This document shows, piece by piece, positions 29,851-30,131 of a stretch of 64,000 bases of DNA. Positions within the stretch are counted from its first letter, which is position 1, and each line of letters opens with the position of its first letter. Source of the DNA: Microbacterium sp. CFH 31415 (GTDB taxonomy: Bacteria; Actinomycetota; Actinomycetes; Actinomycetales; Microbacteriaceae); assembly GCF_022538185.1 (NCBI RefSeq), contig NZ_JAKYXC010000009.1:62001-126000 (forward strand), read 5' to 3'. Below the pieces are notes generated by a model. The model saw nothing but the letters and a program-made list of their open reading frames with translations. It made no database searches and had not been told where the DNA came from. The translations under genes and the position numbers were made by a program.

Positions 29851-29919
29851 GAACAGGACCGCTGGCCGAGGCAGGACGTTTCGCAGCGAATCCTCCTGTT
29901 CTCGCCAGAACACCTGTTC
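29851..29919. repeat. 69-bp near-palindrome, copy A
   Basis: Starts GAACAGG and ends CCTGTTC. An inner hairpin is formed by CAGGACGTTTCGC and GCGAATCCTCCTG. It is preceded by CACCTCTTCGCCCA, also present before copy B, and followed by CTGTTTCTGGGCG (29931-29943), the inverse of that flank. Confidence 0.8.
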
Positions 29920-30062
29920 CGGGCGACGGCCTGTTTCTGGGCGACGAGTGGCCGAGTCCGTTCACCCCATGGTCGGCTGCGCCGTCCCGTCCGCGCCGTT
30001 CCCGCCGCCGTCCCCCGCCGCCCTGTCCCGCGCCGTCCGTCACCCGGTCACCTCTTCGCCCA

Positions 30063-30131
30063 GAACAGGAGATCTGACCGAGGCAGGACGTTTCGCGGCG
30101 AATCTTCCTGTCCCCGCCAGAACACCTGTTC
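30063..30131. repeat. 69-bp near-palindrome, copy B
   Basis: Same length and ends as copy A. The inner part reads GATCTGACCGAGGCAGGACG at the left and differs from copy A mainly near the outer stem. The 5' flank CACCTCTTCGCCCA is shared with copy A. Confidence 0.8.

Follow-up and report, generated by a model that had tools for sequence, protein, structure and literature searches.

Short bacterial palindromes that have a protein of their own are best known from the RAYT-linked REPs. REP and REPIN elements are described as short palindromes in many copies that lie between convergent and unidirectional genes and sometimes within genes (PMC3733652, PMC3116915, PMC8266576). In REPtrons, the RAYT gene is flanked by such copies, and groups of the protein have co-evolved with their repeats (PMC3733652, PMC3116915, PMC8266576, PMC2817692). 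CGTC REPs were reported without a dedicated protein (PMC3733652). Three descriptions of other proteins are relevant here: two monomers of AbiEi bind to a pair of 23-bp inverted repeats, and Rv2827c binds to four (PMC7319586), I-Bth0305I dimerises on a target of nearly 60 bp (PMC3943268), and MTES_1575 was assigned a Vsr-REase fold (PMC3710099).

Here we describe palindromes from a 64,000-nucleotide stretch of the Microbacterium sp. CFH 31415 genome (the window). On balance, we lean towards these 69-bp repeats being candidate dispersed binding or target sites of a free-standing protein with an AbiEi-like and a Vsr/EDxHD-like part, that is, towards a pair that works like REP and RAYT. Our searches of open-licence PMC papers, judged by titles, abstract openings and selected passages, turned up no report of these palindromes and none that ties DUF559/MTES_1575 proteins to palindromic repeats.

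Architecture and distribution of the repeat

The initial annotation had pointed out three near-palindromes in the window, each of exactly 69 bp with GAACAGG and CCTGTTC ends, at 29851-29919 (copy A), 30063-30131 (copy B) and 37095-37163 (copy C). All three were confirmed, and the observation was, if anything, understated, as they belong to a larger dispersed family. The pattern GAACAGG-N45-65-CCTGTTC occurs three times in the window, compared with a mean and a maximum of 0 in 100 dinucleotide shuffles. Conservation reaches ~7 bp past each end of the core, which brings the full element to ~83 bp; on the forward strand, copies A, B and C then span 29844-29926, 30056-30138 and 37088-37170, the last between secA and an aminotransferase gene.

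A genome-wide search for the pattern, as the annotation had proposed, returned nine exact copies in CFH 31415. A model built from these nine (R1) gave 56 strand matches in the same genome, corresponding to 28 places, one of which (C11:133) is weak and was dropped from tests on the CFH 31415 copies. Among relatives, R1 found 19 places in G091, the nearest of 366 genus genomes by its aminotransferase (99%), seven in G083, none in G356 and 63 matches at E≤1 in G007 (36 places by our count). With R3, a sequence-only model from 83 copies for which ~12 candidates were scored per genome, so that per-genome counts are floors, matches were obtained in 249 of the 366 Microbacterium genomes, including one place in G356. 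A restriction of the repeat to the genus proved too strong a statement: 33 of the 398 genomes searched of the bacterial family matched R3, and 26 of these 33 belong to other genera. Twenty places outside the genus showed, by eye, related layouts with other boxes or spacings, and among the matches listed, 115 of 116 repeat-bearing stretches came from Microbacterium. R1 also had a weak match in one genome of another family (G036), and a Brevundimonas MAG (L130), in which a coding sequence probably matched by chance, was left out of the counts. Genome G100 (L275-L278) carries a 61-nt variant whose outer boxes are TAGGAGATG in place of ACAGG, with GTAGGAG at some ends.

Rather than a single hairpin, the unit consists of four copies of a ~15-bp box (consensus CGAGAACAGGNNGAT), two direct with an 18-bp period and two inverted, with a central spacer of 19-20 nt. 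The spacing is fixed at the loci examined: in 20 further quads from named loci, with pattern-selected copies excluded, the spacers measured 13-14, 19-20 and 12-14 nt in a search that allowed 3-30, 3-45 and 3-30 nt. R1 matches of 71-73 nt also occur in G001, G004 and G012, so this tight spacing holds for the named quad loci only.

The element is better conserved than its flanks. In 19 orthologous pairs (12 between CFH 31415 and G091 and seven between CFH 31415 and G083, some CFH 31415 copies being used twice), which were found with R1, a model favouring intact boxes, identity was 94% in the boxes (429/456), 89% in the spacers (373/418) and 81% in the loop (297/365), against 75% in the flank at 8-70 bp (1790/2394). 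Boxes differed from the loop at p = 2e-8 and from the spacers at p = 0.01 when positions were treated as independent. Orthologues are closer to each other (identity 0.86) than CFH 31415 paralogues (0.72), and copies therefore seem to evolve in place and not by conversion.

The initial annotation had taken the constant length with diverged stems to indicate conserved structure. This stands for the boxes and their spacing, but compensatory pairing was not maintained in CFH 31415 and 11 named genomes. With partners shuffled within genomes, arm covariation had a z of 0.3 in CFH 31415 (n = 27 copies) and of -2.9 for 60 copies of the 11 named genomes; compensatory change was seen in G007 (z +3.5; 20 copies). 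Over 450 arm pairs from 18 orthologous pairs, 79 showed a change in one arm and 10 in both arms, the latter compared with 5.4 expected under independence. One of the 10 double changes went from Watson-Crick to Watson-Crick, and 50 one-sided changes switched between paired and unpaired. Between species, the arms covary strongly (185 double-change cells against a shuffled mean of 108), as expected if both arms track a species-specific consensus. The excess of 10 over 5.4 double changes and the covariation in G007 leave room for selection on pairing; the clearest kept feature is the boxes with their spacing.

These data bear on an alternative that we consider unlikely, namely that the elements are host regulatory sites: bidirectional terminators or transcript-end/attenuation elements kept by selection at gene ends, including, at the candidate nuclease gene described below, its own terminators. 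The RNA folds of copies A-C are stable on both strands (z-scores -3.7 to -12.1), and the cross-species covariation just described would fit as well; the retention of box sequence and spacing, and not of pairing (the 50 one-sided changes and the single Watson-Crick double change), argues the other way. The lack of compensatory covariation in CFH 31415 and the 11 named genomes, together with that single change in orthologues, likewise makes a hairpin RNA less likely as the main selected object, with G007 and the cross-species covariation as points in its favour. No Rfam family reached its gathering score in the window, and two microRNA matches close to the copies stayed below threshold (E 0.07 and 0.94) and were taken as chance.

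Two further ideas were considered and rejected. Against uptake sequences, 46 of the 75 boxes found outside pattern copies in 872 kb, a number that exceeds most permutations, lie near at least four ACAGG/CCTGT words and are mostly further quads. The integron attC reading was weighed and set aside.

Genomic placement and relation to REP and MITE elements

Among 118 named copies, 52 lie in tandem, 36 in convergent and nine in divergent gaps, nine inside predicted genes and 12 at stretch edges; the other gaps of at least 75 bp comprise 146 tandem, 28 convergent and 95 divergent ones. Relative to these, the 97 intergenic copies are commoner in convergent gaps (Fisher p = 3e-8) and rarer in divergent gaps (p = 4e-7). 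The CFH 31415 copies divide into 12 tandem, 10 convergent, 0 divergent, three inside genes and three at edges; genes were called with a home-made codon model, and its earlier version had counted four of these copies as 'inside'. The convergent excess and divergent deficit are again what host regulatory sites would produce, as is one gap that retains its copy in seven genomes beside an apparent ribosome-binding site. The in-frame copies inside genes speak against such sites: they open in frame between domains of FAH-RraA fusion-, LigD- and molybdopterin-oxidoreductase-like proteins (names by eye).

In four of the loci (L044, L083, L060 and L123), one or two elements are translated in frame and form the linker between the two domains of an FAH/RraA-like protein, and in L092, L114 and L147 copies called 'inside' stand in an open frame of the same FAH/RraA-like group, by gene call. 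Rickettsia palindromic elements are in-frame palindromic copies inside protein genes, and the in-gene copies here resemble them.

Copies come and go between relatives. The gap of copies A and B has a single copy in G091 and none in G083, G356, G044, G197 or G287, and the gap of copy C has an element in G091, G083, G287 and G018 and not in G356, G197 or G044; a set of 13 relatives had no element in the latter gap but for one weak match (E 0.41) in G001. By eye, the copy C site of G356 and G197 holds other GC-rich hairpins, another point for a regulatory role. The left flank shared by copies A and B, which had also been noted initially, is real and has two causes: both copies lie in a stretch that was duplicated locally at a spacing of 212 bp (103 nt, 88% identical), and the TYGCCCR motif itself belongs to the repeat. 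A second local tandem duplication of element and flank, at C14:212836/213011, is single in G091 and G083.

Simple repeats also occur in these gaps. Nine 20-bp tandem units stand beside copy A (window 29593-29842), CGGCAA units follow copy B, and simple tandem repeats are present in other element-bearing gaps (C10:100654, C10:305265). A long poly-G/poly-C tract at 37230-37330, between copy C and secA, is absent from G091 and is either unstable sequence or an assembly artefact.

The suggestion that the repeats are REP-like held up for copy number, placement at gene ends and between cistrons, gain and loss between relatives, clusters and in-gene copies, and the dispersed copies lie mainly between convergent or unidirectional genes, as REPs and REPINs do. 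It did not hold up for the transposase. None of 23 genus genomes (G000-G022, CFH 31415 included) has a PF01797 match, and of 38 genomes in all a single one does, from another family of the order; five of 14 control genomes were positive in the same search. Besides, a GTAG or CGTC tag is absent from the consensus (column counts ±30 bp, 28 CFH 31415 copies). Hence, although placement, clustering and palindromic layout are of the same kind (PMC3733652, PMC3116915), a classical REP/REPIN mobilised by a RAYT, that is a Y1 HUH transposase, is extremely unlikely and this reading is largely refuted. We regard the system as REP/RAYT-like in its working and do not class it as a member, because no RAYT was found.

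As a second possible origin, the annotation had named a MITE. The inverted arms with subterminal direct repeats and the presence/absence differences between relatives would suit a MITE of a DDE-type or other insertion sequence with two binding sites per end, but several observations make it very unlikely. A half-element model gave 57 matches in CFH 31415 (150 of 3162 candidates scored); apart from one weak match, all of these are halves of the 28 full places, which leaves no lone half-elements among those scored. By eye, target-site duplications were not seen around the copies; clean empty sites or intermediates were not found in the relatives compared either, intergenic DNA turning over too fast in those fetched. 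In addition, the exact four-box pattern is absent from the viral contigs searched, and no place in plasmids or phages covers 80% of a copy C query.

A candidate partner gene and its flanking copies

In CFH 31415, a gene that we call Q1 (C1:93748-94644, equal to L047:2313-3209) is enclosed by copies of the repeat at C1:93550 and C1:94638. Q1 homologues stand beside elements in 15 more loci, and copies lie on both sides of the gene in 13 of the 16 (CFH 31415, L024, L061, L077, L090, L126, L127, L148, L152, L161, L164, L166 and L180, with the gene of L152 being a fragment); L038, L132 and L108 are one-sided or cut. As the loci were selected for containing an element, adjacency is partly built in, whereas flanking on both sides is not. 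Of the 13 pairs of neighbouring elements that lie 600-1800 bp apart in 115 named loci, nine have a Q1-type gene between them.

Q1 of CFH 31415 sits between an S9 peptidase gene and pfkA, one or both of which adjoin the Q1-type gene in 13 of the 16 loci; in L108, L127 and L166, neither was matched at E≤1e-60, which probably puts the gene at a different site in those loci. In the peptidase-pfkA gap, fetched by synteny, CFH 31415, G005, G007, G012 and G013 have a Q1-type gene, G356, G008, G091 and G083 carry a different member of the family, and G002, G004 and G010, whose gaps measure 56, 11 and 130 bp, have no family gene. G010 has a Q1-like gene with other flanking repeats elsewhere in its genome, and M. 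yannicii (L080) and G020 (L028) have one or more elements in the gap and no gene. G091 and G083 carry GAACAGG elements (19 and seven places) together with a non-Q1 family member at the syntenic locus, which speaks against a simple one-to-one rule of gene and element unless Q1 is or was elsewhere in these genomes.

The same gap holds different gene subfamilies per species in L303, L312, L321, L325, L329, L353 and L357, and has the look of a replacement hotspot. Beside the partner gene of L353 (~4770-4930; G013), tandem 18-bp units GTACAGGAGAAGTCACCG are found, the box period being expanded as a direct array.

Gene-flanking elements are nearer on average to the dispersed elements of their own genome than to those of other genomes in six of seven genomes, the seventh (G013) having been dropped as no flank element was extracted. 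Mean arm identity to same and other genomes was 0.74/0.57 in CFH 31415, 0.80/0.60 in G005, 0.79/0.46 in G001, 0.81/0.63 in G014, 0.78/0.62 in G007 and 0.65/0.58 in G012, with five of the six genomes contributing one or two flank elements and G005, G001, G014 and G012 a single dispersed element each. In G012 and G007, the best arm identity to another genome (0.68 and 0.79) exceeds the same-genome mean.

A gene between its own repeats might also be a solitary AbiEi-type regulator or defence nuclease with operator arrays, autoregulatory by the gene and dispersed as regulon or titration sites, which would have spread by ordinary duplication and not by the protein. AbiEi homologues autoregulate via inverted repeats (PMC7319586), the duplications of A/B and at C14:212836/213011 are local and tandem, and orthologous copies are conserved at their sites. 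Even so, we hold this account to be improbable: dispersed copies avoid the divergent, promoter-bearing gaps, full copies are present on the downstream side of the gene too, and the same 69-70 bp unit recurs at unrelated sites in different species.

We saw nothing to contradict the annotation's statement that the window contains no transposase. The window does, however, encode a relative of the candidate partner protein, with palindromes of its own. Its gene (11917-12873, forward strand, GTG start, TGA stop) belongs to another subfamily of the putative AbiEi-like plus Vsr-like proteins and is not the partner of copies A-C. A second palindrome family surrounds it on the forward strand, with copy 1 (repeat D1, 71 nt, 23-nt arms 91% complementary) upstream at 11542-11612, copy 2 at 11724-11794 (182 bp from copy 1; 80% to it) and copy 3 downstream at 12944-13014 (73% to copy 1). 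The two palindromes 182 bp apart in this 11542-13014 region look locally duplicated, the same growth pattern as in copies A and B. The box of this gene had no other convincing match in the window and one 3-mismatch match at 60195.

Flanking repeats are also found around other subfamilies. For 11 family genes that were reached other than through a GAACAGG match, and for 450 control genes from 28 stretches, we scored the best local match between the 300 bp upstream and the 300 bp downstream. Eight of the 11 (the window gene, L297, L303, L312, L321, L335, L353 and L357) exceeded all controls, with scores of 19.5-38 against a control maximum of 17.5, although the repeats at L303 and L312 had been noticed by eye before scoring and L357 contributed only 172 bp of right flank; the window gene scored 19.5, with 0 of 450 controls as high. 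Controls as high numbered one for L329, six for L325 and 190 for L298, which fails the test. Seven of the 11 genes share one syntenic gap (L303, L312, L321, L325, L329, L353 and L357), and L297 and L298 come from stretches fetched for CFH 31415 element sites. Among 67 controls with gaps of at least 80 bp on both sides (roughly estimated among control genes), the maximum was 14.0, and L161, L047 and L270, which were met through elements, exceeded all controls as well. Terminators do not predict subfamily-specific boxes that flank one protein family on both sides, a further point against host regulatory sites. In the sampled stretches, the box CATGTCCC[AG]CTT is confined to the gene (5/5 in 200 kb of G008, 1/1 in 254 kb of G356), and GAACAGG elements are therefore the only ones whose dispersal is shown.

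Pairwise phmmer separates the proteins into three groups (Q1-like with L270, L298, L329, L335, L353 and L357; L303/L312/L325; and the window protein with L297 and L321), with no cross-group match at E≤1. The unity of the family accordingly rests on Pfam/PADLOC and models, its profile having been built from its own matches, which does not prove unity; that sequence does not join the three groups slightly lowers our confidence in the REP/RAYT-like pair. Q1 matches DUF559 at 24.3 bits (cut-off 20.6), MTES_1575 at 30.1 (below 38.2), AbiEi_4 at 14.2 (below 25) and PADLOC AbiEi at 1e-5. DUF559 was also over its cut-off in L303 (22.1) and L298 (24.7), and matches below cut-off were MTES_1575 in L312 (18.7) and AbiEi_4 in L297 (14.6). 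The window protein matches the G356 protein Q2 (phmmer, 57.7 bits) and PADLOC AbiEi (3e-8), with no Pfam match at E≤0.1 and no PDB sequence match at E≤1.

In the structure model of Q1 (pLDDT 88.5), an AbiEi-antitoxin-like part appears to be followed by a Vsr/homing-endonuclease-like domain. Foldseek placed AbiEi 6y8q first (E 1e-5, TM 0.35/0.48) and the catalytic domain of I-Bth0305I second (6.5e-4, TM to target 0.82); the absence of other fold families from the structure-match lists carries no weight. Model residues 7-193 align to 6y8q (VIA; Z 8.0, rmsd 4.8, 175 aligned), in keeping with an AbiEi-like N-terminal architecture, residues 195-292 to I-Bth0305I (Z 13.3, rmsd 2.3, 95 aligned), and residues 191-290 to Vsr (Z 10.6, rmsd 2.1, 98 aligned); the Z for 3hrl was 11.8. 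E197, D223, D235, H240, D249 and D253 are invariant in 14 sequences. The model of the window protein (pLDDT 73, from an alignment including Q1 members) gave Z 9.5 to 6y8q (rmsd 7.2, 172 aligned), Z 7.7 to Vsr 1cw0 (3.4, 102) and Z 6.4 to Rv2827c, all near the level of unrelated matches.

Proposed mechanism and comparison with known systems

Building on the observed association of gene and repeat, we infer binding, cutting and movement. The N-terminal part of the protein would bind the boxes, with up to four monomers per element, and the C-terminal nuclease might nick or cut at or near the palindrome. Repair after cutting could then copy elements to new sites, where established copies would persist at gene ends and perhaps also act on transcripts. 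Each protein subfamily would be paired with its own flanking boxes. In the light of the precedents of AbiEi/Rv2827c and I-Bth0305I (PMC7319586, PMC3943268), a ~75-bp palindrome with four boxes suits a protein that has both parts. Counting against this reading, clean empty sites, target-site duplications and intermediates were not found in the relatives compared.

The repeat and gene may form an unrecognised kind of selfish or regulatory DNA. More specifically, and tentatively, they could represent a second, independent class of REP-like selfish DNA, in which palindromes are copied by an AbiEi-Vsr/homing-type fusion, with many such pairs in Microbacteriaceae and pairs replacing each other at the S9 peptidase-pfkA site. 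If true, a pair based on an unrelated enzyme would suggest that the REP type of lifestyle arose more than once, and would propose a role for some uncharacterised DUF559/MTES_1575 genes. The loci described here provide directly testable protein-DNA pairs.

Compared with AbiE type IV antitoxins (AbiEi, Rv2827c), to which the N-terminal two-thirds of both models align, the present proteins would have an added nuclease-like C-terminal domain, and boxes of the GAACAGG family are dispersed genome-wide. With I-Bth0305I and Vsr, Q1 shares the predicted fold of the catalytic domain (Z 13.3 and 10.6). The gene is free-standing, as is that of I-Bth0305I, for which a long target has been described (PMC3943268); unlike in both I-Bth0305I and Vsr, it is flanked by full palindromes, and dispersal of target-like repeats is not described for I-Bth0305I in the available part of PMC3943268. 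The likeness to REP/REPIN-RAYT systems lies in the dispersed short palindromes, the gene flanked by copies and the occasional in-gene copies. In contrast to these, the partner is modelled as AbiEi-like plus Vsr-like and not as a Y1 HUH transposase, the CFH 31415 consensus carries no GTAG/CGTC tag, and the unit is four boxes at fixed spacing. The system is thus ordinary in its placement and new in its partner.
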